DNA of 64,000 nt from Leptospiraceae bacterium. GTDB taxonomy: Bacteria > Spirochaetota > Leptospiria > Leptospirales > Leptonemataceae. Under the pieces are notes generated by a model. That model was not told the origin of the DNA and ran no database searches. It was given only the letters and a program-made list of their open reading frames with translations. The position numbers and the translations under genes are program-made. This document shows, one piece after another, positions 3,857-64,000 of the stretch; the first letter of the stretch is position 1, and each line of letters begins with the position of its first letter. The stretch is taken from positions 1-64,000 of the forward strand of contig JAOACE010000005.1 in the NCBI GenBank assembly GCA_026418015.1. The letters run 5' to 3'.

Positions 3857-4415
3857 AATTTTTTATCTATTTTTTTTATTAATTATATCTTGTAAAGACG
3901 AATATCCCATCTTAAAAGAAGAATCGCGGGAAACCTTTGCTAATTTAAGGTTCTCGAATTTTAGGAAAATTCAGTATAAGGGAATAGGGATAAAAAAATG
4001 GGAATTACAGTCCGAAGAAGCATATGTTTATCAAGATGAAAACCAACAAAACGTAAAAAAAATCATCGTATATAATTTTACGTTCGAACAATTCCTACCA
4101 GAAAAGGCTTTTTTTAAAGCAAAAAAAGCTGTATTAGATCAGCAAGAAAATAAAATGTTTTTAGAAGGAGATGCCGAATTTTCGGACAAAGAAATTCAGC
4201 TTAAATCAGACACTTTGATCTACGAAGTTGAAAAAGGAATCTTAGATACAGAACATCCTGTTATTCTAAAAAGAAAAAATACAGAATTAAAATGTTTAAA
4301 AGGATTGTATTACGATAAAAAGAACGATTTACAAATTTGTAGAAACCCCGCTGGAACCATTATACAAAATAATCGTACACAAAACAAAGATGAAACAAAC
4401 AATTTCTTTTTTTAG
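3828..4415 (+). CDS. lptC: LPS export protein LptC-like lipoprotein
   Basis: A 195-aa protein with a short membrane-targeting segment (VKIFYLFFLLIIS) ending in a lipobox-like IISC, followed by an LptC/OstA-like beta-rich domain with the usual pattern IKKWELQSEEAYVYQDE, LDQQENKMFLEGDAEF and LKSDTLIYEVEKG. LptC sits on the periplasmic face of the inner membrane and hands LPS from LptBFG to LptA. Classical LptC has an uncleaved transmembrane anchor; the Cys suggests a lipid anchor here. The start lies 29 bases inside kdsA, and the end overlaps the next OstA-type gene by 26 bases. Order kdsA-lptC-ostA-lptB-rpoN matches the LPS transport cluster of many Gram-negatives, which supports the call. Confidence 0.82.
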   Translation: MNWIDWSKVKIFYLFFLLIISCKDEYPILKEESRETFANLRFSNFRKIQYKGIGIKKWELQSEEAYVYQDENQQNVKKIIVYNFTFEQFLPEKAFFKAKKAVLDQQENKMFLEGDAEFSDKEIQLKSDTLIYEVEKGILDTEHPVILKRKNTELKCLKGLYYDKKNDLQICRNPAGTIIQNNRTQNKDETNNFFF

Positions 4416-5739
4416 TTTGATTTTAATTTTAATTACGAATCAATGCAATTATCAAAAAAAAAGTCCTATAATATCAAATTTTGAACCTTACTCTTCCTTA
4501 GGCGAAGAGATGATTTTCCCCGAACAAGGAAACCTAATCAAAAAAATAGAAAATACAAAAAAGCGAAAGAACATAGTAACTTACTATTATGCAAATGAGC
4601 TAATTCGAAAAAAAATTCTTTGGAAAGGGAAAGAAGATTACCAGACAATTTTAAGAGGAGATGCTATCATTATTCATGAAAAAACAAAAATACAAGCACC
4701 AGAAATTATATTGGATCCCGATAATAATGGTATAATCAACGGAAAGATTCTTATTTCGGAAAGTGAACAAGGGATTTATTTTTATGCCGATGGTGGTGAA
4801 TACAATCGAAGCGAAGAATATATTAAGATCAAAAATAATCCCTATATGAGAATTAAAAACAATCAAGATACGATTTTGATCGAAACCAGAGAAATTGTTC
4901 GAAATATTGCAGAAAAAAACATTGTTTTTGTTGACTATGTAAAAATGCATGGAGATGACTGGGTAATGTTCTCGGACGAAAGTATATACTACGACGATAC
5001 GAAAAAATTTATATTAAAATACCATCCTGTTCTGTTAGGGAAGGATTTATACTTAACAGCTCAAACCTTTGTTTATAAAAGTGATGAACAAAAGATTATG
5101 ATAGATCAAAATCCCGTTATTTTGACTAATTTGAATGCAACAAAGCAAAACGAAGATTCAAACAAAAAAAACGAAACAGAAATCATGCACATTTCTTCTG
5201 ATTTAATCGAATATAACCTAAAAGAACGATCGGGAATTGTTAAAGGCAATGTCCTAATGCAATCTAAGACAAAAACCATTCAAGGCGAAGAATTTCTTTT
5301 AAAAGGAAAAGGAATAGAAAAGATTGTTAGCGAGAAAAATGTCACAATTGTCGACAAAAAAGAAAATTTTTTTTTAAAATCCAACTATATGGAATATGAT
5401 TTAAAGAATCGTAAACTTTACTTAAAAAATCAACCCCATTTAATTACTTATGATGATATTACCAAAGAAAATAAGACGATCAAACAAGAGCTAAAAGCTG
5501 CAATCATCGAAAGAAATTTCGAAAAAGAAATTACTACTGCAAAAGGAAACATTTATTTTAAACGCGGAAACGAAATAGCAAATTCAGAATATGCTATCAT
5601 AGACGAAAAAAACGAAACAATGAAGTTAATCGGTAATCCCATACTCAAAAGAGGTGATACAGAAATTCATTGCAAAGAAATCAATGTATACAAAGATAAA
5701 ATAGAATTACAAAGAGAATTAGAAGCGAAAATATATTAA
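4390..5739 (+). CDS. Large OstA/LptA-family lipoprotein with repeated LPS-transport domains
   Basis: A 449-aa protein with a signal peptide ending in a lipobox-like ITNQC, then repeated OstA/LptA beta-jellyroll units: the recurring pattern is a strand pair such as [35 protein letters not shown] or [19 protein letters not shown] followed by another hydrophilic strand. LptA normally has about 160-190 residues and is soluble, so this is more than twice the usual size and lipid-anchored. It probably forms the periplasmic bridge between LptC and the outer-membrane LptD, possibly alone spanning what oligomeric LptA spans elsewhere. It lies between lptC and lptB. The role follows from family and context; the bridge length is inference. 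Confidence 0.8.
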
Positions 5740-5747
5740 AAAAAATT

Positions 5748-6485
5748 ATGAAGGAAAATCAAACAAAAATATTTCGAATGGAAAATTTAGTAAAAATTTA
5801 TCATAGAAGAAAGGTAGTTGATAACGTCTCTTTTTACATAAAACAAAAAGAAATCGTTGGATTATTAGGACCTAATGGAGCTGGTAAAACTACCTCTTTT
5901 TATATGGCAGTGGGGTTAATTAAACCAGATTCTGGAAAAGTTTTTATTAACGACAGAGATGTTACAATTTTGCCGATGTTTAAAAAAGCGAGAGAAGGAA
6001 TTGGTTATTTAGCACAAGAACCATCTATTTTTAGAAAATTGACGGTAAGACAAAACATCGAAGCCGTATTAGAAATGCATCTAAAAGATAAAAACATTAT
6101 AAAAGAAAAAACCGATATTCTTATAGAAGAGTTAAATTTAAAAAAGGTTCAAGACCAAAAAGGCTATACACTTTCTGGTGGAGAAAGAAGAAGATGCGAA
6201 ATAGCAAGAGCATTGGCAACCGATCCAGATTTTATCTTGTTGGATGAACCATTTGCTGGTGTAGATCCCATAGCAGTAAAAGATATACAAAATTTGATTT
6301 TCCATTTAAGAGAAAGAGGCTTAGGAATTTTGATTACAGATCATAATGTAAGAGAAACCTTAAAAATTACTGATAGAGCATATATTATGTACTCTGGGCA
6401 GATTTTAAAATCGGGAAGTGCAAAAGAACTCGTCGAAGATCCTAAAATTAAAGAAATCTATTTAGGAGAAGATTTTTCACTATAA
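5748..6485 (+). CDS. lptB: LPS export ABC transporter ATP-binding protein LptB
   Basis: A 245-aa ABC ATPase with Walker [11 protein letters not shown]-loop in YLAQEPSIF, signature LSGGERRR, Walker B FILLDEPF and H-loop ITDHNVRET. The [15 protein letters not shown] sequence and the directly upstream lptC and OstA genes identify LptB rather than an amino-acid transporter ATPase. It powers extraction of LPS from the inner membrane with LptF and LptG, which are not in this window. It begins eight bases after the OstA gene and ends two bases before rpoN, the same order found in many Proteobacteria. Confidence 0.95.
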
Positions 6486-6487
6486 AT

Positions 6488-7840
6488 ATGAAGCAAAAAA
6501 TAGAACAAAGACAAATTCAAAAATTGGTTTTGACTCAGACATTAAAACAATCCATTGAATTATTACAGTATTCTCAATTAGAACTACAAGAAAAGCTAGA
6601 AGAAGAAGCAAAAGATAATCCTTTTCTTACAATTAAAAAGAAAAAAGAATTCATTCCATTAGGTTTATTTGATCGATATGTAGACTACGAAGCAACAGAA
6701 AGAAAACACAAAGCAATCGAAAATATCGCAGCAAAAACGCAGTCTTTGTATTCTCATTTATTAGATCAAGTTGAATATTGTGATTTAACAGAAAAAGAAA
6801 AAGAAGCAGCAAAAATTTTGATTACTTGTTTAGATAGAAACGGATTTTTAACACAAGATCCCGAAAAATTATTAAAACCATTTCATTTTTCTCCAGAAGA
6901 AATCTTAAAAATAAGGAAAAAAATTGCTGGTCTTGATCCAGTTGGCTGTTGCGCTCTGGATTATTTAGAATCCTTAAAATTTCAATTAGAATATAAAGAC
7001 GATATACCCGAGTCGAAAGACGCAATCTTTTTGTTGGATCATTTTAAAAAAGAGTTAGAAGATCAAAACTTCGAAGAAATTAAACGAAAAACTGATTTCG
7101 ACGACTTAAAATTAAAAAAAATCTTATCTTTAATAAGAACGTTAAATCCGTTTCCTGGTAGACAATATTCCAACGAAGAAATTGTCTACATAGAACCAGA
7201 TGTTTATGTTTTTGTCGAAGAAATAGAAGAAAATGGAACCAAAGATTATAAAATCGAAGTAGTTTTGAACGATAAAACACTTCAAAATATAGAATTCAAC
7301 AAAGAATATATTAAACAAGTACAACAAGAAAAACAACTCTCGAAACAAGAATTAGAAGAATTAAAGAAAAAATATTACAATGCAAAAATTCTTATTCAGG
7401 CAATTCAACAAAGAAACGAAACCTTGTTAAAAGTAGTACAATCGATTGCAAAATTTCAAAAAGAGTTTTTTGTTTCTGGAAAAAATTTAGTTCCGTTAAA
7501 ATTAAAGGATGTTGCAGATGATGTTGGAGTTCATGAATCAACCATTTCGCGAATAACAAGGAACAAATATGTTCATACAAAATGGGGGATTTTCGAATTA
7601 AAATATTTTTTTCGGCGTGGATTAAAAAGAATTAGCCAAGAAACAAAAATCACCACAGAAAAAGTAAAAGAGTTAATCCGAGAAATTATAGAAAAAGAAG
7701 ATAAAACAATACCGTTAAAAGATCAAGAGATAACAAATATTTTAATCAAAAAAGGAATTAAAATTGCGCGAAGAACTGTTTCGAAATACAGAAAAGAATT
7801 AGGAATTCCTTCCGTAGACGAAAGAATCATTAAACAATGA
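6488..7840 (+). CDS. rpoN: RNA polymerase sigma-54 factor RpoN
   Basis: The 450-aa protein has the three sigma-54 parts: the N-terminal activator-interacting region (QTLKQSIELLQYSQLELQEKLEEEAKDNP, residues 17-45), the core-binding region (about 100-300), and the DNA-binding region with an HTH (LKDVADDVGVHESTISRI, about 338-356) and the RpoN box ARRTVSKYRKELGIP near residue 428. Sigma-54 reads -24/-12 promoters and needs an AAA+ activator, none of which is encoded here. Its stop codon abuts the convergent stop of the next gene with no bases between them. It starts two bases after lptB, the conserved lptB-rpoN arrangement. Confidence 0.97.
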   Translation: MKQKIEQRQIQKLVLTQTLKQSIELLQYSQLELQEKLEEEAKDNPFLTIKKKKEFIPLGLFDRYVDYEATERKHKAIENIAAKTQSLYSHLLDQVEYCDLTEKEKEAAKILITCLDRNGFLTQDPEKLLKPFHFSPEEILKIRKKIAGLDPVGCCALDYLESLKFQLEYKDDIPESKDAIFLLDHFKKELEDQNFEEIKRKTDFDDLKLKKILSLIRTLNPFPGRQYSNEEIVYIEPDVYVFVEEIEENGTKDYKIEVVLNDKTLQNIEFNKEYIKQVQQEKQLSKQELEELKKKYYNAKILIQAIQQRNETLLKVVQSIAKFQKEFFVSGKNLVPLKLKDVADDVGVHESTISRITRNKYVHTKWGIFELKYFFRRGLKRISQETKITTEKVKELIREIIEKEDKTIPLKDQEITNILIKKGIKIARRTVSKYRKELGIPSVDERIIKQ

Positions 7841-8827
7841 TTATTTTAAGTTCTCTATAAGAAATTGTAAGCTTGTTTCTCTTTCTTTTTTTTGGTTTGG
7901 ATCTTGATTTTCGTCAGTAAAGATTTGCATGGACTTATCACAATTAAGAAGATTAAAAAAACTAAATGCTGTATAGGCGGGATGTTCTGGATCTTCTAAC
8001 CCTACACTCATAATTGTGGGAATTTGGATTTTGTTTGCAATAAAAAGTGGTTCGTTTAGAAATTCGTATAAATTTTGGTTTTTGTTTTGGGATTTTTTTA
8101 ACAAAACAATTTTTTGGTATTCTTTTGCAAGCTGTGAACTACTCAATTTAATAAAATTCTCGAACCATACAGGCGATATTCTTTCTAAGGCTAATGCTTT
8201 AACAGATTCTGGTCGAAATGCAGCAGCAAATACTGCTAAATTTGCACCTAATCCTCTACCTATAATGCCTATTCTGTCGTGTCGAATACTGTTATTCAGA
8301 CGAATAAAATCTATTGCTCGAAGTAAATCTAAAACAAGAAAGACTCCATAATCATAGTTAAAAGGTTGTTTAAAGGTATCTAGAAAATAGGGAGGATAGA
8401 GAAATTCGATCTTTTTCGACTTATCGGATGATGAAATGTTTTTTAAATGTTCTTGTAAAATTTCTTCTTTGTGCAAATATAGATGTAAGTGGGCAATTCC
8501 ATTATTAGTTAAGGTTTGATTCATCTCTTCTAAATTATTAAATTCCTGCCAATAATCATGAACGCTAATTACAGCAGGAACTTTGGTTAACTTTCTAGGT
8601 ATAATCAAATAACCATGGATAATATTATCTAAATGCCCCTTAAACTGAATTTCGTAATTACTGGTTTTTGTTAAAGATTTACGAAGTTTAAGTTTAGATA
8701 CAGGTTCTAGTGGCTTTTTTTTAATTTTAATGATTTCTTCTTCCCAAAGTTTGTCGAAATTTAAGGGTTTTCTAACCTCTGGTATTGCTTTGTAACACTC
8801 ATCAAATGTAGGAAACTTTTTTGGCAT
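7841..8827 (-). CDS. Acetyl-xylan-esterase (AXE1)-like alpha/beta-hydrolase, probably catalytically dead
   Basis: A 328-aa protein with the layout of the AXE1/cephalosporin-C deacetylase family: KVPAVISVHDYW (oxyanion strand), a long middle part with DLLRAIDFIRLNNSIRHDRIGIIG, and MSVGLEDPEHPAYTAF carrying the acid residue. The nucleophile elbow, normally G-x-S-x-G-G, reads GRGLGAN, so the catalytic Ser is replaced by Gly. The C-terminal part (ENQDPNQKKERETSLQF) has no His where the catalytic His is expected. This suggests a pseudoenzyme or an altered function. No signal peptide, so cytoplasmic. It is a single gene convergent with rpoN. Confidence 0.7.
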   Translation of the reverse strand: MPKKFPTFDECYKAIPEVRKPLNFDKLWEEEIIKIKKKPLEPVSKLKLRKSLTKTSNYEIQFKGHLDNIIHGYLIIPRKLTKVPAVISVHDYWQEFNNLEEMNQTLTNNGIAHLHLYLHKEEILQEHLKNISSSDKSKKIEFLYPPYFLDTFKQPFNYDYGVFLVLDLLRAIDFIRLNNSIRHDRIGIIGRGLGANLAVFAAAFRPESVKALALERISPVWFENFIKLSSSQLAKEYQKIVLLKKSQNKNQNLYEFLNEPLFIANKIQIPTIMSVGLEDPEHPAYTAFSFFNLLNCDKSMQIFTDENQDPNQKKERETSLQFLIENLK

Positions 8828-8961
8828 TAAGAATGCAATCTTTTATAAAGTTTTATTAAGTAAAGCAATAATTAAAGAAATTATTGTTGAATTTTTTACT
8901 ACAATAGAAAATATTAATTATAAAGATAGATCTATATCGATAATTAAAAATAGGAATAACT

Positions 8962-9348
8962 ATGAACATAGAAGAAATAAAAAAAGACGCAAAACTTTTA
9001 AAATTTTCGAGAGGGCAGAAAATATACGAAGATAAAAGTTATTTGTCAGATATAAAAATATTTTATATTTTAAAAGGAGAAGTTATTTTAAGAAAAAAAT
9101 ATACGCCTTTAGTCAAAGAAGAATTCCATCTTAAGGAAGGGGATTGGTTAGGGATACTAGAATTATATACTAGTAAGATAAGGATTACAGAAGCAGAAGC
9201 TTTAACAGATGTGGAGCTATTGGGGTTTGATAAAATTACCTTTGAGAGAATCTTAGTTAGTAATATACAAATATCATTAAAGGTTATTAGAATGTTAAGC
9301 CAAATTCTAAGAAAAGCAAACGAAAGAATTAAATCACTACCAGAATAA
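8962..9348 (+). CDS. Single-domain cyclic-nucleotide-binding-like protein, degenerate cassette
   Basis: A 128-aa protein that is only a cNMP-binding (CRP/PKA-type) beta-barrel domain: FSRGQKIYED, IFYILKGEVILR, FHLKEGDWLGILEL and a C-terminal helix. The phosphate-binding cassette, normally FGE(x)nPR(S/T)A, reads WLGILELYTSKIRITEAEA and lacks the key Glu and the Arg-Ser/Thr-Ala part, so ligand binding is doubtful. No DNA-binding HTH or catalytic domain is present. AGGA eight bases before the ATG serves as ribosome binding site. It is the first gene of a run of four collinear genes ending with a PP2C phosphatase. It may act as a protein-protein adaptor; that is inference. Confidence 0.8.
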   Translation: MNIEEIKKDAKLLKFSRGQKIYEDKSYLSDIKIFYILKGEVILRKKYTPLVKEEFHLKEGDWLGILELYTSKIRITEAEALTDVELLGFDKITFERILVSNIQISLKVIRMLSQILRKANERIKSLPE

Positions 9349-9352
9349 TAAT

Positions 9353-9802
9353 ATGAAGATCTCAAATCATGATTACGATTTATTAAAGCTTGGTTTCGAA
9401 GGGGAACAAGCAATCACTAATGAATTGTTTTATAAGTACGGTAAGACTTACGAACCTAAACAAATTATAATTCGAGAAGGAGAATTTGGTAAGGATGTTT
9501 ATTTAATCATTTCAGGAAAAGTGATTGTTGCAGAGAGGTTAAGTAACTCAAAAAAATATAAAATGTTAGCCACATTGGGACCTGGGGAAATTTTTGGAGA
9601 AATGGCATTATTAGATGGACAGCCACGTTCAGCGACATTAGTAGCTGCAAGTCCATGTAAGATTCTTGTATTAAGTCCAGAAAATTTCGAAAAGGTTTTT
9701 AAAACTCATCCCCGTTGGGCATTAAAAATCTTGGCTGCTCTAACGAAAAGAATACAAAATGCATTTGAACAAATAGAATCCTATTATCAAGGTAAAAAAT
9801 AG
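9353..9802 (+). CDS. Single-domain cyclic-nucleotide-binding protein, intact cassette
   Basis: A 149-aa stand-alone cNMP-binding domain. Its phosphate-binding cassette GEIFGEMALLDGQPRSATLVA is canonical, with the Glu that binds the ribose 2'-OH and the Arg that binds the cyclic phosphate, so it should bind cAMP or cGMP. The upstream strands IIIREGEFGKDVYLIISGKVIV also fit the family. The C-terminal helix (ALKILAALTKRIQNAFEQIE) probably moves on ligand binding; there is no HTH, so it is not a CRP regulator. It begins four bases after the previous gene, and the partner is probably encoded in the same operon. Confidence 0.9.
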   Translation: MKISNHDYDLLKLGFEGEQAITNELFYKYGKTYEPKQIIIREGEFGKDVYLIISGKVIVAERLSNSKKYKMLATLGPGEIFGEMALLDGQPRSATLVAASPCKILVLSPENFEKVFKTHPRWALKILAALTKRIQNAFEQIESYYQGKK

Positions 9803-9804
9803 TT

Positions 9805-10833
9805 GTGACATTAAAAAAATGGATATTAAGATCCATTCCTTTACTAACTCTATTAAAAGAATGGGCAAAAACACGTGATTTAATTTTACTAGAAGAAAAT
9901 CAATTTTCTTCGCATATAAAAAAGTTGCTCCATCAAAATAGAATTGGTATTTATCCTACAAATACTTTACTTGTTGATTATAAAAACTATCATACCTGTT
10001 TATTTGCAAAAGAAGAAAGATTATCGAATAATTTAATTCAAGATTATATACAAGAACTCGAAGAGTTTTTGTATAGTTGTGGCAGAAATAAAGAAGATTT
10101 TGATTTGATTAAAATTGTTTCCTCCGAAAAAATTCTAGAGAATCGAACTTTCTTTCCCTTATTTTTTCTGATTTGGAAACCAGAAAAACCATTATTAGAA
10201 CAATTTTTGTCTGGAAACTATCAAGATACTATCAAATACAATCAAAATTCTAAATTGATAAAAAAAGTAAAAGAAGACTTTTATGTAAATTATCACGAAA
10301 ATGTAGAAGGTTATTATAATCTAAAAAAAATAGAATTTAATAAAAATCAATATTTATATAAATACTTTATAAAAAAAATATACGATAAATACATTGTTTT
10401 ATTTTTAGCAGAAAAACGCGAAGATTTTAAATTGGAATATTTTAAAAACTTAGTAGAATTTTATGTTTATTCCGATCGTCCTGTATTAAAATTCGAAGAA
10501 TATTTAAGAAATGTAAATCCTCTAAACAAATCGATTATTCTATTAGAATTAAAACAAAACGGAAACTGGAAAGGGATTTTTTATAATTGTATATCCTTAT
10601 TTTATAGAAATCGTAAACAAAAACTATCTATTTTACCAAATTATCAAAAAAGCAGAAAATACATTCAATTAGCTAACTTTTACCCCGAAGATTTTATCAT
10701 ACTTCTGCCAACAATAAAAAGTATAAATGATAAACCTAAATTTCCCATTAGTGAACAAGAAGTTTCTAAAGAATTAGAAAACTATAATCCAGGAAAAGCA
10801 TTACTCATCGGATATAAAAAAAATGAACATTAG
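9805..10833 (+). CDS. Unrecognised 342-aa protein in cNMP/phosphatase operon
   Basis: I do not recognise this family. It starts with GTG two bases after the cNMP-binding gene and overlaps the phosphatase gene by 11 bases, so it is surely part of the same operon. The N-terminal 20 residues are amphipathic (WILRSIPLLTLLKEWAK); no signal peptide or transmembrane helix is clear, so it is probably cytoplasmic. The protein is rich in Lys, Tyr and Asn. Near the C-terminus, ANFYPEDFIILLPTIKS and the preceding strand SIILLELKQ weakly resemble the end of a GGDEF domain with its catalytic signature lost. That resemblance is a hint, not a call; a structure prediction would decide it. Confidence 0.85.
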   Translation: MTLKKWILRSIPLLTLLKEWAKTRDLILLEENQFSSHIKKLLHQNRIGIYPTNTLLVDYKNYHTCLFAKEERLSNNLIQDYIQELEEFLYSCGRNKEDFDLIKIVSSEKILENRTFFPLFFLIWKPEKPLLEQFLSGNYQDTIKYNQNSKLIKKVKEDFYVNYHENVEGYYNLKKIEFNKNQYLYKYFIKKIYDKYIVLFLAEKREDFKLEYFKNLVEFYVYSDRPVLKFEEYLRNVNPLNKSIILLELKQNGNWKGIFYNCISLFYRNRKQKLSILPNYQKSRKYIQLANFYPEDFIILLPTIKSINDKPKFPISEQEVSKELENYNPGKALLIGYKKNEH

Positions 10834-11824
10834 AAAATTTATATTAAACTTTAAATTAGATTTATTAATCAATATTATTTCGCTGATTTTATTCCTTCTA
10901 TTTATATTCATAGTATTTTTTAGGATAAATCATTCAATAGACTTACTTGTTTGGATAATAGGTCTATCGATAGTTTTTGTGACTTTTGCAATCCAATTAC
11001 TCAAAATATATTATCGATTTGTTATTGCGAAGAGTAGAAGATTAAACAAATTGATAAAAAATTTATACGAAAACGAAAAGACCTTTATTAGATTAAAACA
11101 ACAAGTAGAAAGAGAATTAATATTAGCAAGAAAAACTCAAAGAAAATTAATTCCCGAAAAGAACATAGAAAAAAATAATTATAAATTTATTTTAAAATAT
11201 GTTCCTGCTCAAGAAATTGGCGGTGATTATTGCGAAATTTTCGAAATTGATGAAGATCATATGGGATTTGTCGTTGCAGATGTATCGGGACATGGAATTG
11301 CATCTGCTCTTATTTCTTCTATGATTAAAATGGTTTGTACATTATCAAAAGATTTGTTGATTGAACCTCATCTATTTTTAAAATATATTAACTATTATTT
11401 GTATGATAAAATTGGTGGTCATTTTTTAACGATGATAGCTGGTGTGTTGAATACAAAAAATCATTTTTTGAAAGTGGCAAATTCTGGTCATTGTTTACCT
11501 ATTTTAATAGATTCCCATCAAAAAACAATTTCTACTCTTGAAATTTATGGAATGTGTATGGGAGTCTATCCAGATTTGGACTATAATTCGATAGTAATTC
11601 CCTTACAAAAAGGCAATAGAGTGTTATTTTTTACTGATGGTATTACAGAAACAGTTTATAAAGATGATGAACTCTATGGTGAAGAACGTCTAATAAAAAA
11701 ATTGTACGAATGTATGGAAAACAACTTAGAAGAATGCATAGAAAAAATACTTTTAGATGTTTTGTATCATAGGCAACAAGAATCGGATGATATAGCTATC
11801 TTATTTTTCGAGAAGATTAAATAA
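10823..11824 (+). CDS. Membrane PP2C/SpoIIE-type serine phosphatase
   Basis: Two N-terminal transmembrane helices (about residues 14-34 and 42-62), a coiled-coil linker (70-105) with the family-typical RELILARKTQRKLIP, and a SpoIIE/PP2C catalytic domain (110-330). Metal-binding motifs are present: IGGDYCEIF, VVADVSGHGIASAL, NSGHCLPIL, FFTDGITET and ESDDIAILF. RsbU-like phosphatases dephosphorylate anti-anti-sigma (STAS) proteins in partner-switching pathways. It is the last gene of the four-gene run with the two cNMP sensors, which may control it. No STAS or RsbW gene lies beside it. The 3' end overlaps the convergent hydrolase gene by eight bases. Confidence 0.92.
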   Translation: MNIRKFILNFKLDLLINIISLILFLLFIFIVFFRINHSIDLLVWIIGLSIVFVTFAIQLLKIYYRFVIAKSRRLNKLIKNLYENEKTFIRLKQQVERELILARKTQRKLIPEKNIEKNNYKFILKYVPAQEIGGDYCEIFEIDEDHMGFVVADVSGHGIASALISSMIKMVCTLSKDLLIEPHLFLKYINYYLYDKIGGHFLTMIAGVLNTKNHFLKVANSGHCLPILIDSHQKTISTLEIYGMCMGVYPDLDYNSIVIPLQKGNRVLFFTDGITETVYKDDELYGEERLIKKLYECMENNLEECIEKILLDVLYHRQQESDDIAILFFEKIK

Positions 11825-12986
11825 TCTGATGCAGAATATTTCTTAACTCCGCAGAAGGTATAATCTGTAAATGGGATGTTCCATTGATTATGCTAATATT
11901 TTTTTCGCTAATGTCTTCGTTATGGAAACTTAGACTTGGTTCTTCTATTAATCCATCTCCTAACCAAGGGGACCACATAGAATTATTTTCTGTTATTAGG
12001 GAATAAATTTTGTTTATTTTGTATTGTTTAAAGATTTCTTTTTCCTTTTGTAAAAATTGTTTAGAAAATAATATGCTATTGTCAAAATCATTGATTATCT
12101 TAAAGTTTTCGTCTGTTAGAATTTTTAGTATTTTGATGGATGTTTTTGGATCATACTTATATAAAAAACCTGCCCATAAAATAAATCGTTCTAATTTTAC
12201 ACCAAGTTCAGGAGAATTGATCATAATCAAATTATAAAATTTATTTATAAAGAAATCATTATAATAATTTATTAAGTATCTTATAATATAATTGCCTGTA
12301 CTAAAAGCAATCACATTGAATTGTATTTTTTTTTCTAAATTATCAAAAATATCTTTTAGGATTGAATAAAAAATTTGGCTATTTTCTTGAATCGTTTTGG
12401 CGGGATCAAACTGGAATTTGATGGTATAAATATTCTTATTTTTTAATAAGTTATCTATGGTAGTTTGATTCTGGTATGTACTTTCCCAAATGGTTTCGTC
12501 CGATAACAATGGAGGAATTAATAAAAATACGCTTTTATAGTTCAATTCTTGAATTTCTTGAACTACTCTTTCTGTTGATAAAATATTGCCATTGTTTTTT
12601 ATAAAAACATCAAAATATTCTGATGTTAAGAGTTTATCACTAAATAGCGAAGGTAAGAATATTTCGTTAAATAGGCTTTTCGTTAAAGATGGTTCAAAAG
12701 GTTGTATAATATCGATAATATTGCTAAGAAATTCAGAATAATAATACAACAGCGTTAACAAAGATTCTTGAGAAATGTTTTTGATCTGCTCTATGTTTTT
12801 TACGATTTCATTCGAAAATAAATGATGAAAATATTCTTTTAGGTTTGGATGATCACTAATATCTACCAACTGCTTTTCTACAAACATTAAAGAATTAACA
12901 ATTAATTCTCTTATTTGAAAAAAAATTTGTTCTGTTACTTTTCCATAGATAAGAGAAATATCTTGGATAAATTGATTTCTTTCCAT
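11817..12986 (-). CDS. Alpha/beta hydrolase, PHB-depolymerase/lipase-like
   Basis: A 389-aa protein with an all-helical N-terminal extension (about residues 1-125) and an alpha/beta-hydrolase domain. The nucleophile elbow is VIAFSTGNYIIRYL (A-F-S-T-G, a variant of G-x-S-x-G). The acid residue is probably in WLGDGLIEEPS and the His in GTSHLQIIPS, in the right order and spacing for a lipase or PGAP1-like esterase. FQFDPAKTIQENS and INSPELGVKL also fit such enzymes. No signal peptide, so it is likely cytoplasmic. The substrate is unknown. It is convergent with, and overlaps, the phosphatase gene. Confidence 0.75.
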   Translation of the reverse strand: MERNQFIQDISLIYGKVTEQIFFQIRELIVNSLMFVEKQLVDISDHPNLKEYFHHLFSNEIVKNIEQIKNISQESLLTLLYYYSEFLSNIIDIIQPFEPSLTKSLFNEIFLPSLFSDKLLTSEYFDVFIKNNGNILSTERVVQEIQELNYKSVFLLIPPLLSDETIWESTYQNQTTIDNLLKNKNIYTIKFQFDPAKTIQENSQIFYSILKDIFDNLEKKIQFNVIAFSTGNYIIRYLINYYNDFFINKFYNLIMINSPELGVKLERFILWAGFLYKYDPKTSIKILKILTDENFKIINDFDNSILFSKQFLQKEKEIFKQYKINKIYSLITENNSMWSPWLGDGLIEEPSLSFHNEDISEKNISIINGTSHLQIIPSAELRNILHQII

Positions 12987-33312: not shown

Positions 33313-35502
33313 ATGTCAAAAATACAACAAATCGATTTGAATAAATTAGTAAATGAATTACCAAGAGGTGGTTATTTAATACAAACATCTGTGGGTTATA
33401 TTCAAGTAGGTTCTCCACCAGAAACCATTAAAGATACAATGAGGCTTCCTCATAGTACGCCACAAATTTTTATTTTACCAAATCAATTATTTCACGTAGA
33501 AAAAGGGATTTCTTTAGCAGAGTTAGAATTCCCTTTATACTATAATCATTTTTTAAGACAGAAAAAAACTTATATCGTTTGTACAAAAGAACAAAAAGAG
33601 CAATTAACGATTGCGCTTAAAGAAGCAGTTTTTGGACCAGAAGAAATCAATCTTGCATCAGAATATGTTGGAGGAGAGAATCATCCAGCATTCCCTAACA
33701 TGAAAGCAGAAATAGACTACTTTCGTGGTAATAGGACCCTCGAAGATTTAGTAAGATTTGTTGTATTCAATAAAGAAAACACGGCAAAAATCAATAATGT
33801 ATATATAAAAAAACTCGATAGTGGACAGTTTTTAATCTCGGATAAAGATTGGAATAACGAAGTAGTGGTAGATGGTGATATTAAATATAATATTATTTAT
33901 GATATTGGTAAATCGCTTCCAGAACCATTTAATCCTCCTTTGTTTGGAATTACCTGTTTAGGTCCAAGTCATGGATTCGATCCAGAAGCAAACACCTCTG
34001 GTTTTATTCTATGGCTAAATCATCATGGAATTATGATAGACCCACCTGTAAACTCTACGGAATGGTTAAGATTATCTAACGTAAATCCAAAACTCATAGA
34101 TACGATTATATTAACCCATTGTCACGCAGATCACGATGCAGGAACATTTCAGAAAATCTTAGAAGAAGGCAAAATTACGATTTATACCACAGAAACGGTG
34201 TTAGATTCCTTTATTCGAAAATATCAAGCCTTAACAAAAATACCTAAGGAAGAGCTCTTAGATTTGTTTGAATTTGTTAATGTTGTAATTGGTAAAGAAT
34301 ATCAGATTCATGGTGCTTCTTTTCGTTTTAATTATGCATTACATTCAATTCCTTCTTTGGGCTTTGGTTTTGAATTCGAAGGTAAAACCTTTTATTATTC
34401 TTCGGATCATTTAAATGCCCCAGCTGAATTTTATGATGAGTTAAGAGATAAAGGAATTTTAACACCAGGAAGGTGCGAGGATTTAAAAAACTTTCCTTGG
34501 GAATCGGATATTATTTATCACGAAGCAGGTATACCTCCCCTACATACTAGGATTGATTTTTTGAGTAAATTACCTGTCGAAGTTCAGAAAAAAATTACAG
34601 TATATCATATCGCGGCGAAAGATTTTCCAAAGGATACCTACCTAAAATATGCTCAATTTGGTATAGAAAATACTGTTTATGTGGACATACAACCACCAAA
34701 ATACGAAGAGGTATATAAAATATTAGATGCATTAGCAAATGTAGATATTTTTAAAAATTTCCCCATATCCAAAGCAAAAGAGTTTATTACGATTGTTGAT
34801 AAAAAGAAATTTTCCAAAGGAACAAAAATTATTCAAAAAAATACGATGGGGGATGAATTTTTTATAATTCTTTCTGGAAATGTTCGCGTAGAAGGAATGG
34901 AACAAGATGTAGTGGCACAAGAGATCGCTTTAAAGCGATATGGAACATACGAATACTTTGGAGAAGCTTCTTTAATTTTGGATCAGCCGCGAAGCGCAGA
35001 TGTAATAGCAGAGACAGAAGTAGAAGCATTAGTAATTAAAAAAGAAAAATTTTTATCTTTTATTAGGGATTCTGATTTATTCGAAAAATTCAAAAGGTTA
35101 AACGAAATACGAAAGACAGGAACGTGGGATGTATTATCGAATAGTAGTATATTTAAGTTCTTAACCTCTGCTCAGAAGACTGCCTTAGAATTGATCATGG
35201 AATTGAGAAAAGAAATCAAAGGTCGTTATATCATCAAAAAGAAACAGCATTTTAATGAAGTCTTTATAATAAAAAGAGGGAAGGTAGATGTAATCGATGC
35301 TCGAGATAAAGTGATTATGACCCTTTCTACGGGAGATTTCTGTGGCCAAATCTTTAATTTACAAAAAAACCTCCCATCAGATTTCGATTTTCTTGTTCAG
35401 GAAGATTCCGAACTCTATGCAATTTCCAGAGAAAATATGATCAAATACATGCAAGATAATCCCGGTGTCTACATGAAGCTTTATAAAATCTTTAAGGTAT
35501 AA
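33313..35502 (+). CDS. Metallo-beta-lactamase-fold hydrolase fused to two cyclic-nucleotide-binding domains
   Basis: A 729-aa protein. Residues 1-190 hold an unassigned N-terminal region; 200-450 are an MBL fold with complete metal ligands (LTHCHADHDAG, then ALHSIPSLGF, YYSSDHLNA, YHIAAKD). Two cNMP domains follow: the first (about 485-600) has a near-canonical cassette FGEASLILDQPRSADV, the second (about 615-725) a degenerate one (FCGQIFNLQKNLPSDF). The MBL part should hydrolyse a phosphodiester or ester under cyclic-nucleotide control, for instance cNMP itself; substrate unknown. It has no signal peptide, so it is cytoplasmic. Such fusions occur in Leptospira. Confidence 0.9.
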   Translation: MSKIQQIDLNKLVNELPRGGYLIQTSVGYIQVGSPPETIKDTMRLPHSTPQIFILPNQLFHVEKGISLAELEFPLYYNHFLRQKKTYIVCTKEQKEQLTIALKEAVFGPEEINLASEYVGGENHPAFPNMKAEIDYFRGNRTLEDLVRFVVFNKENTAKINNVYIKKLDSGQFLISDKDWNNEVVVDGDIKYNIIYDIGKSLPEPFNPPLFGITCLGPSHGFDPEANTSGFILWLNHHGIMIDPPVNSTEWLRLSNVNPKLIDTIILTHCHADHDAGTFQKILEEGKITIYTTETVLDSFIRKYQALTKIPKEELLDLFEFVNVVIGKEYQIHGASFRFNYALHSIPSLGFGFEFEGKTFYYSSDHLNAPAEFYDELRDKGILTPGRCEDLKNFPWESDIIYHEAGIPPLHTRIDFLSKLPVEVQKKITVYHIAAKDFPKDTYLKYAQFGIENTVYVDIQPPKYEEVYKILDALANVDIFKNFPISKAKEFITIVDKKKFSKGTKIIQKNTMGDEFFIILSGNVRVEGMEQDVVAQEIALKRYGTYEYFGEASLILDQPRSADVIAETEVEALVIKKEKFLSFIRDSDLFEKFKRLNEIRKTGTWDVLSNSSIFKFLTSAQKTALELIMELRKEIKGRYIIKKKQHFNEVFIIKRGKVDVIDARDKVIMTLSTGDFCGQIFNLQKNLPSDFDFLVQEDSELYAISRENMIKYMQDNPGVYMKLYKIFKV

Positions 35503-57094: not shown

Positions 57095-57212
57095 ATTTCC
57101 TTTCAATTTAAAATTTTCTTAAAAAAATGATTTTTATAATTGAATAAAAATTCAGTAAAAAATTGACAACAATGTTGTTTATATTTTTGTTGTTATGTTA
57201 TTGGGAGGAGGT

Positions 57213-59390
57213 ATGAGTCATTTTACCAAATATCAAAAGCATATATTAAGAGAATTAACCTTTCGATTAGAAATTTTTACTCATATTGTTCCGGTTCCTG
57301 CAATTGTGTATTATGCAGCACTTGCAATCTTAACATTTAGCAAAAAGTATGCAGATTTTGCCATCATTACTTTAATGATTTCTGCTATTATTGCTGCTAT
57401 TTTAATGCTTTTATTAGGTGTTGTTCTAAGGATTAATAAAATAAAAAAAATCTTTTCTATTACAGATAAACAAACTTTAAAATTAGAATTATTGCGATTA
57501 CCTAAATTCGAATCGTTCGTCATAGGTTTTAGATGGGGATTAGGGGTTATTAGTGCTTATGGAATGATTATTGCTTCGTTTTTGTACAAATATGGTATTA
57601 AAGACCTTCCTGTTGATTTTTTGTTGATGATCATTCCTTTTTTAGGAGTGCCCATATTTCTAGCCATTATTCCCTTAGAAATGAGTAGTCATTATTTAAT
57701 TGCAGAAAACATTATAAGAAAATACATCAAAAAATCTTTGTTAAGAGATATTGAACTTCCCACAGAAAAGCTTAAAGTCAATTATTTTATCAAGATCTTT
57801 CTCTATATCGTTTCGTTAGTAGGTATGCCCATGATTATTTTAGTATCTTTGATGAGTTTAACCTATTATTTTGGTAGTCAATTAACCAATCCTTTAATTC
57901 ATTTTATTTTTTTATCTTTGATTTGTCTTTATCCTATCTTCCAGACTGCGTATTACATTGCAAAAAACCTAAACGAAGGAATCGCTCAAATTAAAGAATC
58001 CTTAGAAGAAATTTCCCAAGGTAATTTTAATACTAAGTCTGGTATTTTAACCTTTGATGAATTGGGAATGTTATCTCAGTTTACGAATAAAATTATTGTT
58101 CAATTAAAAGATATGTACGAATCTATCAAAACTTTAAACGAAAATCTGGAACAAATCGTAGAAATACGAACGTTAGAATTAAAAAACACATTAGAAGAAG
58201 TTCAAAAATTAAAACAACAGCAAGATGGAGATTATTATTTAACTTCTTTGCTAATAGAACCATTTATACAAAATCGCGTAGAAGAGGAATTTTTAAATCA
58301 ATCCTTTGTGTATGATTTTATTCTAAAACAAAAAAAAGAATTTGTATTTCGCGATAAGCATAAACAAATTGGTGGAGATTTTTGTACATTTCGAAAAATT
58401 ATCTTAAAAAATAAGCCTTATCTATTTTTTGTTAATGCAGATGCAATGGGTAAATCTATACAAGGTGCAGGAGGAGTTCTTATCTTAACATCTATCTTAC
58501 AATCTGCGTTAGAAAGAAATGCACTTTTCGACGAGGAACAAAATGTTTTGCCCGAGTTATGGTTAAGACAATTGTTTATAGAAATGCAAAAAACTTTCGA
58601 GGTATTCCAAGGAAGTATGATGCTATCATTAATTATGGGATTAATCGATGTTCAAACCAATTCGCTTTATTTTATCAATGCTGAACATCCCTATCCGGCA
58701 TTAATTCGCAACGATAAATTGAGGATTATTAAAGAAAAACATTTTCTAAGAAAAATTGGTACAACCATTACAGAAGGTAATTTATTTATCAATACCATTT
58801 ACTTAAAAAAGAATGATATGTTTATTTGTGGTTCTGACGGAAAAGACGATATTGTTTACGACGATAAAATCAACGATGACGAAACACTATTTTTTCGGAT
58901 TTTAGAAAAAAATCAAAAAAATCCTTTTAGAACAGTCGAATATTTATTTAATCATGCAATTATAAAGGATGATCTTTCTATTTTATGGATAGAAGCGAAA
59001 AAAAACAATCACTTAGAAAATAACTATTATTTTTATAAAAACCTAAAAGAAAAAATTAAAACTGAATATAAACAAAAAAAATATGAATCCTTGTATAGCT
59101 TATTAAAAAATTATTTATCAGATATTCCCTTAGATAGTCAATATATGTTTTTATACGCGAATGTTTGTTATAACATTGGAAATTACCAAGAAGCGAAAGA
59201 GATTATCGAAGCATTAAGACTGAGAAATCCCATCAATGCTTGGTATTTATATTTGAGTTCTAAAATATATAATAAACTAAACCTAAAAGAAAAAGCTTTA
59301 AAATATTATCAGAAAGCTATGGAATATGTAAACGACGAAAATTTAAAAACGAAGTTAGCACAAATTCGCAAAGAAATTATATTCAAATAA
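57213..59390 (+). CDS. Seven-helix-like membrane SpoIIE phosphatase with C-terminal TPR
   Basis: A 725-aa protein. Six or so transmembrane helices (about residues 30-260), a HAMP-like linker (ESLEEISQGNFNTKSGILTFDELGMLSQFTNKII), a coiled coil, a PP2C/SpoIIE domain (about 370-590; motifs KQIGGDFCTF, FVNADAMGKSIQGA, INAEHPYPALI, CGSDGKDDIV) and a C-terminal region with TPR-like helices (SLYSLLKNYLSDIP, YQEAKEIIEALRLRNP). Catalytic metal residues look complete. The start at 57213 follows GGGAGGAGG; the ORF track starts at 57195, which lacks a ribosome site. It would act as an RsbU-type phosphatase at the membrane. Confidence 0.88.
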   Translation: MSHFTKYQKHILRELTFRLEIFTHIVPVPAIVYYAALAILTFSKKYADFAIITLMISAIIAAILMLLLGVVLRINKIKKIFSITDKQTLKLELLRLPKFESFVIGFRWGLGVISAYGMIIASFLYKYGIKDLPVDFLLMIIPFLGVPIFLAIIPLEMSSHYLIAENIIRKYIKKSLLRDIELPTEKLKVNYFIKIFLYIVSLVGMPMIILVSLMSLTYYFGSQLTNPLIHFIFLSLICLYPIFQTAYYIAKNLNEGIAQIKESLEEISQGNFNTKSGILTFDELGMLSQFTNKIIVQLKDMYESIKTLNENLEQIVEIRTLELKNTLEEVQKLKQQQDGDYYLTSLLIEPFIQNRVEEEFLNQSFVYDFILKQKKEFVFRDKHKQIGGDFCTFRKIILKNKPYLFFVNADAMGKSIQGAGGVLILTSILQSALERNALFDEEQNVLPELWLRQLFIEMQKTFEVFQGSMMLSLIMGLIDVQTNSLYFINAEHPYPALIRNDKLRIIKEKHFLRKIGTTITEGNLFINTIYLKKNDMFICGSDGKDDIVYDDKINDDETLFFRILEKNQKNPFRTVEYLFNHAIIKDDLSILWIEAKKNNHLENNYYFYKNLKEKIKTEYKQKKYESLYSLLKNYLSDIPLDSQYMFLYANVCYNIGNYQEAKEIIEALRLRNPINAWYLYLSSKIYNKLNLKEKALKYYQKAMEYVNDENLKTKLAQIRKEIIFK

Positions 59391-62257: not shown

Positions 62258-64000
62258 ATGGAAAATTTTTTCAGTCAGGTTTATCCATTTAATATATTAC
62301 CAGAAGATGAGTTGAATTATTTATATAATAATATTATAAAAAAAAAATATAAAAAAGATGATATAATTTTTAAAGAATCAACAGAACCATTAGAGTATCT
62401 TTATATTATAGAGAAAGGGTCAGTCAGTCTAGAAGCAGATAACCAGATTATCGAAACCCTTAAAGAAGCAGATATATTTGGTTTTGTCTCGTTATTGGGA
62501 GATCAGCCTCCTACTTCCACTGCTCGAGTATTAGAAGAACCTACGATTGTTTGGTTAGTGCCAAAACAAGATTTTTTAAGACTTTGTAATGAATATAATG
62601 ATTTTGCTCTCTATTTTACAAAAAAACTATCTAACAGAATATCGAAGTTTTCTACTTCACGTTCTTTTTTTGATGTTGAAGGTTTAATCGATGTTAAGAT
62701 TAAAGATTTAAAATTAAAAGAACCATTAATTGTAGAACATAATAAAAACCTTTTAGATGCCATTAAACTTATGGCAGAGAAGGATTCTACTTATTGTATA
62801 ATAAAAAGAGATGGTGATTATGGAATTATTACCGAAAGAGATGTGATCAAAAAGGTATTAGCAAAGGATTTAGATCCCAAAAAAATGACGGTGCAAGAGA
62901 TTGCAACATTCCCAATCATAAAAATGTCATCTTCGGATTTGCTATTTAATGCACTACTTACAATGGCAAAACACAACATAAGAAAGCTTATAATTAGCGA
63001 AGGGGAACAAATTGTTGGTGTGCTTGACGATAGGACTATTATATCTCATCAGAGTAAAAATGTATTATTTCTTATAAAAGAGATCGATAAAGCAAAGTCT
63101 ATTGAGGATCTATCTTATTTATATTCTATGATTCAAGATAGCTTAATAGAGATTTCTTCTCGCGGAATGGATCCAGAATATATGGGAAAATATATTTCCG
63201 AATTAAACGATTACTTTATGAAGAAGACAGCAAAGCTCACAGAAGCATTATTGGGAAAAAGCCCTTCCGATTATATGATTCTTGTAATAGGTTCAGAAGG
63301 AAGAAAAGAGCAAAGTCTAAAAACAGATCAAGACAATGTATTATTATACGAAAGTGACGAGAATAACTATTTCGAAAATTTTGCCAAAACCTATATAGAT
63401 AATTTATTAAAAATTGGATTCCCTCCTTGTCCAGGGAATGTAATGATCAGCAATCCCTATTGGAGAAAAAGTAAATTAGATTGGTTTAAAGAAATCGAAA
63501 AATGGATGGAAAACCCAAAACCAGAAAATGTTTTAAATATCAGTATTTTTTTCGATTTTAGAATGGTTTTTGGTTCAGAATATCTTTACGAAGAATTAAA
63601 AGAATTTGTAAAAAAAAGTATAAAAACAAGTAAAACATTTCTTCCTTTTTTGGCATCGGAAGCAGTTAAGTTTAAACCACCATTGAATCTATTTAAACAA
63701 TTAGTCGTAGAAAAATCTGGAGAAAACAGAGGCAAGATCGATATAAAAAAACATGGAATATTCCCAATTGTACAAGGTATTAGAGTATTATCGTTAGAAA
63801 ACGAAATCTTCGAAACAAATACTTATGAACGCATTAAAATATTATCTACAAGAAATGTATTTGGCGAAAAATTCGCGAAGGATTTAGAAGATACATATAG
63901 ATTTTTAATGAATATTAGGTTAAAATCTCAGGCAAATCAACTTTATTTAGGAAAAGAACCAAGTAATTTTATCGATCCAGAAACATTATCGAAAACAGAG
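62258..64000 (+). CDS. cNMP-binding/CBS/DUF294 nucleotidyltransferase-like protein, truncated by window end
   Basis: An ORF of 581 codons starting MENFFSQVYPFNILPEDEL and still open at base 64000, which explains its absence from the track. Domains: cNMP-binding domain (1-130; cassette DIFGFVSLLGDQPPTSTARV is degenerate), a CBS pair (about 145-275; PLIVEHNKNLLDAIKLMAEKDSTYCII and KHNIRKLIISEGEQIVGVL), then a DUF294 nucleotidyltransferase-like domain (about 340-580; VIGSEGRKEQSLKTDQDNVLLY, matching the GS-x-GR-x-E-Q...TDQD pattern). Such proteins often sit next to ActP/DUF4212 symporters, and an exonuclease-type gene often follows. It probably senses nucleotide levels to control the transporter, an inference. 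Confidence 0.9.
   Translation, partial: MENFFSQVYPFNILPEDELNYLYNNIIKKKYKKDDIIFKESTEPLEYLYIIEKGSVSLEADNQIIETLKEADIFGFVSLLGDQPPTSTARVLEEPTIVWLVPKQDFLRLCNEYNDFALYFTKKLSNRISKFSTSRSFFDVEGLIDVKIKDLKLKEPLIVEHNKNLLDAIKLMAEKDSTYCIIKRDGDYGIITERDVIKKVLAKDLDPKKMTVQEIATFPIIKMSSSDLLFNALLTMAKHNIRKLIISEGEQIVGVLDDRTIISHQSKNVLFLIKEIDKAKSIEDLSYLYSMIQDSLIEISSRGMDPEYMGKYISELNDYFMKKTAKLTEALLGKSPSDYMILVIGSEGRKEQSLKTDQDNVLLYESDENNYFENFAKTYIDNLLKIGFPPCPGNVMISNPYWRKSKLDWFKEIEKWMENPKPENVLNISIFFDFRMVFGSEYLYEELKEFVKKSIKTSKTFLPFLASEAVKFKPPLNLFKQLVVEKSGENRGKIDIKKHGIFPIVQGIRVLSLENEIFETNTYERIKILSTRNVFGEKFAKDLEDTYRFLMNIRLKSQANQLYLGKEPSNFIDPETLSKTE

Follow-up and report, generated by a model that had tools for sequence, protein, structure and literature searches.

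What kind of system is encoded by the run of four co-directional genes at positions 8962–11824 of a 64,000-nucleotide stretch (hereinafter, the window) of contig JAOACE010000005.1, from a bacterium of the Leptospiraceae (assembly GCA_026418015.1)? In this run, two small proteins of the cyclic nucleotide-binding (CNB) fold, denoted cN1 and cN2, are followed by a 342-aa protein, denoted X, and by a membrane phosphatase of the PP2C type. The cN1 and cN2 genes are separated by 4 bases, cN2 and X by 2 bases, and X overlaps the phosphatase gene by 11 bases; these frames and spacings agree exactly with those given in an initial annotation made from the letters of the window alone. We infer, at roughly even chances, that cN1-cN2-X is an operon for a cyclic nucleotide-regulated pseudophosphatase adaptor, the inference extending to ligand binding, complex formation, the adaptor role and the partner of X.

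Conservation of the cN1-cN2-X Gene Order

The window comes from a largely uncultured family of spirochetes near Leptospira, from which 22 genomes were compared with 26 other genomes of the class. In profile searches of 61 genomes, the cN1 ortholog set was recovered in 18 of the 22 family genomes with E-values of 6.5e-43 or better, clearly apart from the other CNB proteins, which score at about 1e-15 or weaker. The X profile also identifies its target in 18 family genomes, with no relatives in any of the 26 other genomes of the class; X is confined to the family and is present wherever cN1 and cN2 are. Of the four family genomes without cN1 and X, two are 77–78% complete, and the others measure 0.9 Mb and 2.2 Mb. 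The cN2 gene directly follows cN1 in all 18 genomes (gaps of −4 to +63), and X directly follows cN2 in each of the 16 loci on long enough contigs (gaps of −17 to +6 bases), the count leaving aside G015 and G010, where the contig stops at or just past cN2.

The recurrence of this order within the family is far beyond chance, and literature searches retrieved no paper on the cN1-cN2-X gene set. That the genes are merely co-transcribed housekeeping neighbors with no common pathway, as might be surmised from the free exchange of downstream genes between lineages, appears quite improbable because cN1, cN2 and X stay together wherever present while everything downstream changes. The conservation in relatives that was anticipated for the entire four-gene order holds for the first three genes, the complete set being limited to one clade.

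Two Distinct CNB Proteins

The phosphate-binding cassette of cN2, FGEMALLDGQPRSAT, is intact, with E83 and R92 in place; the FGEM...R[SA]AT pattern is present in 18 of 18 orthologs, and the identity of the protein across the family is 63–86%. By virtue of a cassette with both Glu and Arg, cN2 can be classified as a predicted cyclic nucleoside monophosphate (cNMP)-binding protein. The canonical cassette (FGE) is absent from cN1 in all 18 orthologs, all of which possess a pocket loop of the form G-x-L-E-x-[YFL]-x4-R. When the two motifs are compared directly, the Arg residues align, and the Glu of cN1 is located two positions later.

The earlier view of one intact and one degenerate cassette is accurate for cN2 and for the non-canonical character of cN1, but not for its decay: the invariance of the loop argues for constraint. 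Because cN1 conserves a G-x-L-E...R motif of its own, it appears to retain a role, either in binding another ligand or as an interface, and the invariant Glu and Arg in the loop leave its description as a degenerate, non-binding partner unproven.

X Is a Predicted Pseudophosphatase

No match to X was found in Pfam or NCBIfam, or among PDB sequences with the single sequence, and the PDB search with a profile yielded nothing usable, so that the description of this protein as belonging to no recognized family stands. The sequences of the window X with 10 homologs and of the X homolog from another family genome (G007) with 15 others were modeled with AlphaFold2, resulting in confidence (pLDDT) values of 77.6 and 74.7, respectively, and predicted template modeling scores (pTM) of 0.49–0.57. 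In both models, the C-terminal part shows the order beta-beta-beta-alpha-alpha-(six beta)-alpha(-alpha)-beta, which is that of PPM phosphatases. In Foldseek searches against PDB, RsbX was the top match for both models (E = 6.7e-6 for the window protein and 1.1e-8 for the G007 protein), with moderate TM-scores of 0.53–0.56 normalized to RsbX, and the 38 matches of the G007 model with E no higher than 0.001 consist entirely of PPM phosphatases and RssB. These results suggest that the C-terminal ~175 aa of X adopt a PPM/PP2C fold, a prediction at the level of the structural model.

Profile comparison of X with SpoIIE domains from the same genome gave E-values of 0.001–0.005 over 103–134 columns in 7 of 8 runs (0.016 in the eighth), and the alignments cover the same region of X in the same register. 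By eye, the segments "DG...G..P..R" and "GRL..GD.LL.PG" of X resemble the SpoIIE segments "G.L.Y.NAGH.P.L..R" and "L..GD.LLLYTDG". The hhalign probabilities of these comparisons are low (3–22%), and sequence alone is therefore insufficient for the PPM claim.

The suggestion in the initial annotation that the C-terminus of X is a worn-out GGDEF domain traces to a weak similarity (E of 0.04–0.1 with the GGDEF profile in hhalign, over ~35 columns). The SpoIIE profiles score better and over three times the length, no GGDEF structures are among the top Foldseek matches of either model, and Pfam GGDEF does not match X; accordingly, the GGDEF assignment, which gives way to the predicted PPM/PP2C fold, is hardly credible. 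Control profiles of CNB domains and cyclases gave nothing against X, and a class III cyclase was rejected as the identity of its C-terminus on that result. Membership of the 342-aa protein in some known, unrelated family is borne out only for the fold of its C-terminal half.

Among 16 aligned homologs of X, the sole invariant Asp of the C-terminal domain is D296, located at the structural GD turn, with no conserved Asp at the other PPM motif positions, and even with a cutoff as lax as E = 1, neither the SpoIIE nor the PP2C profile of Pfam matches any of the 16 family members. In SpoIIE itself, the metal ligands are D628, D746 and D795 (PMC5468089). The lack of conserved metal-ligand Asps leads to the prediction that X is a pseudophosphatase. 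The neighboring phosphatase in the window retains catalytic Asps D135, D153, D272 and D322/D323 within the motifs GGD, DVSGHG, TDG and DD, and has two predicted membrane helices with a helical linker.

The N-terminal ~140 aa of X contain invariant P12, D58 and E132 and near-invariant W124 and E127; neither Pfam nor profile searches matched this region to a family, and neither whole-protein Foldseek search gave a useful non-PPM match. Because the invariant positions of the family lie mostly in this domain, it could be proposed that X is an enzyme with a relocated active site (D58, E132, W124, E127), the PPM half being a structural or dimerization module. However, the N-terminal half has no match to an enzyme family in Pfam, profile or fold searches, and we consider this scenario unlikely.

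A Variable Fourth Gene

The PP2C gene follows X only in the genome of the window (G000), in its congener G003 and in the sister-genus genome G008. In the phylogenetic tree of X, the genus of the window groups with G008 (support 95/93), so linkage to PP2C characterizes a single clade. The PP2C of G008 is a 623-aa protein with a long N-terminal region, and in G003 the PP2C reading frame is broken into fragments. In the latter genome (KatS3mg129), the lptB, axe and PP2C frames of locus L030 (4173–10303) are all broken or shortened; because axe and lptB of this assembly are broken too, the disruption of PP2C looks more like the result of indel errors in the sequence record than like the decay of a single gene.

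In 11 other genomes, the place of the PP2C is taken by a 500–640-aa protein with GSS and DxHH motifs, usually followed by a gene for a protein of the metallo-beta-lactamase fold (e.g., L036, 9336–12028; L174, 3221–5445). Three of the GSS/DxHH proteins were compared with Pfam and produced no match; the motifs recall SGNH hydrolases, as a motif impression only. This protein was not found in the genus of the window or in G008, in a search that had no positive control. The Lactamase_B_2 gene downstream of it shows a weak, below-cutoff similarity to Apyc1, of the anti-Pycsar family of cyclic nucleotide-degrading enzymes, and its product might be a cNMP-degrading partner. In G001, X is followed by a phosphoglycerate dehydrogenase-type gene, and in G002, there is no phosphatase near X.

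Synteny thus rules out the PP2C as an obligatory fourth gene, and its presumed status as a fixed member of the set has to be abandoned, unrelated genes being found in this position elsewhere. This bears on the alternative that the four genes make up a phosphatase switch, in which cN1, cN2 and X would regulate the adjacent membrane PP2C, with X as a dead subunit. Such a switch is compatible with the 11-base overlap between the X and PP2C genes and with the recurrence of this arrangement in G003 and G008, and dimerization is a documented mode of control of PPM phosphatases (PMC12143880). Nevertheless, the absence of the PP2C from the vicinity of X in G001, G002 and 11 more genomes shows that it is no general partner; as a general explanation the switch seems improbable, although it may hold inside one clade.

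Proposed Mechanism

Under the scenario of a regulated pseudophosphatase adaptor, cN2 would bind a cNMP, probably cAMP or cGMP produced by the many class III cyclases of this genome. By family searches, the genome contains 26 class III cyclase, 14 CNB, 23 SpoIIE and 16 GGDEF matches, and therefore pools of both ligands and partners exist. More generally, spirochetes of the Leptospira lineage are rich in cyclase-type genes, and the 2.9-Mb genome of the window has a very high density of genes for nucleotide and partner-switching signaling.

The two CNB proteins would act as a regulatory pair that senses the cNMP and controls X, which would be the output protein, combining its N-terminal domain with a PPM/PP2C domain devoid of metal ligands. 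We propose that X binds a partner (a phosphoprotein, a phosphatase, or a protein of the anti- or anti-anti-sigma type) without dephosphorylating it, in a mode resembling the binding of sigma-S by RssB. In the lineage of the window, the output could be linked to the intact membrane SpoIIE-type phosphatase next door, with the dead PPM domain of X possibly pairing with the live PP2C; elsewhere in the family, the partner of X must differ. In a more specific and more tentative version of the adaptor hypothesis, a CNB heteropair, with one canonical and one re-registered pocket, would control the pseudophosphatase adaptor, the N-terminal domain of which would be of a hitherto undescribed kind, and the output partner would be swapped between lineages (active PP2C, or the GSS/DxHH protein together with the metallo-hydrolase).

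Several considerations weigh against the adaptor hypothesis. The confidence of the AlphaFold2 models is moderate (pLDDT of 75–78, pTM of 0.49–0.57 and TM-scores of 0.53–0.56), and the two models share homologs and are not fully independent. The residue-level loss of catalysis in X is derived from an alignment, not from superposed coordinates, and the N-terminal domain could itself be an enzyme. The interaction among cN1, cN2 and X and nucleotide binding by cN2 are predictions, and the gene for the putative partner varies between lineages. Altogether, the notion of a dedicated signal module survives as a conserved operon of signaling type, with a canonical CNB protein, a non-canonical one and an unrecognized central protein, without the phosphatase as a fixed part.

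In Leptospira, cAMP alters swimming within a second, by a route of action that is unresolved (PMC9043183). The CNB-pseudophosphatase operon, conserved in the family, is a concrete candidate, amenable to testing, for a cNMP effector of the Leptospira lineage that acts by a non-transcriptional route; given that it was not found outside one family, this does not imply that it has a role in Leptospira itself.

Organization of the Locus and Its Surroundings

The features of the locus are listed in Table 1. The intergenic region between the AXE1-type gene and cN1 (8828–8961) is probably a promoter region shared by the two.

Table 1. Genes of the cN1-cN2-X locus and flanking genes (positions in the window)
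Feature	Coordinates	Strand	Product	Evidence
AXE1-family hydrolase	7841–8827	−	Divergent, upstream of cN1	Pfam AXE1, E = 8.6e-23
cN1	8962–9348	+	128 aa, stand-alone CNB-fold protein	Pfam cNMP_binding, E = 5.2e-7
cN2	9353–9802	+	149 aa, stand-alone CNB protein	Pfam cNMP_binding, E = 5.8e-25
X	9805–10833	+	342 aa, GTG start, two-domain	AlphaFold2, Foldseek, profile comparison
PP2C	10823–11824	+	333 aa, membrane SpoIIE/PP2C-type Ser/Thr phosphatase	Pfam SpoIIE PF07228, E = 2.8e-37
Putative esterase	11817–12986	−	Convergent, downstream of PP2C	

The AXE1-type gene divergently adjoins cN1 in 17 of the 18 family genomes. Beyond it, many relatives (L034, 12073–16166, and equivalents) carry the genes for 2-oxoglutarate dehydrogenase E1 and E2; on the same side, the window has lptA-lptB-rpoN (4390–7840) instead. 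Elsewhere in the window are a 729-aa open reading frame that matches CNB twice close to the C-terminal end (33313–35502), a 731-aa open reading frame with a C-terminal SpoIIE domain (57195–59390), and a further CNB match in an open frame (62342–62596).

Comparison With Known Systems

The window PP2C agrees with phosphatases of the SpoIIE/RsbU type (PF07228) in profile and motifs, and differs from them in that a pair of membrane helices with a helical linker takes the place of a sensor domain. Among CNB proteins of PF00027, cN2, with its canonical FGEM...PRSAT cassette, resembles the stand-alone and regulatory-subunit forms, with a logic like that of the PKA regulatory subunit; unlike these, cN1 has a GxLE...R motif in which the Glu is located two positions later, and neither cN1 nor cN2 has a DNA-binding or kinase domain.

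The closest matches to the predicted fold of X are the small PPM domains of Bacillus subtilis RsbX and the Moorella stressosome phosphatase (3zt9). RsbX, however, is an active stand-alone phosphatase that holds its metal ion with three Asp residues (PMC7226468), whereas X has no conserved counterparts of these ligands. In this respect, X is more akin to Escherichia coli RssB, in which the effector domain is likewise C-terminal, has a PPM/PP2C fold devoid of active-site residues and serves as a protein-binding adaptor (PMC7226468); RssB structures (6z4e, 8t85) are among the Foldseek matches. The differences are that RssB has an N-terminal receiver domain, whereas the N-terminal domain of X matches nothing known, and that the operon of X also encodes CNB partners, with no evidence tying X to ClpXP or a sigma factor. 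The cN1-cN2-X set thus represents known parts in a new variant rather than a new category of system, in which X would join RssB as a bacterial PPM domain reused for binding.
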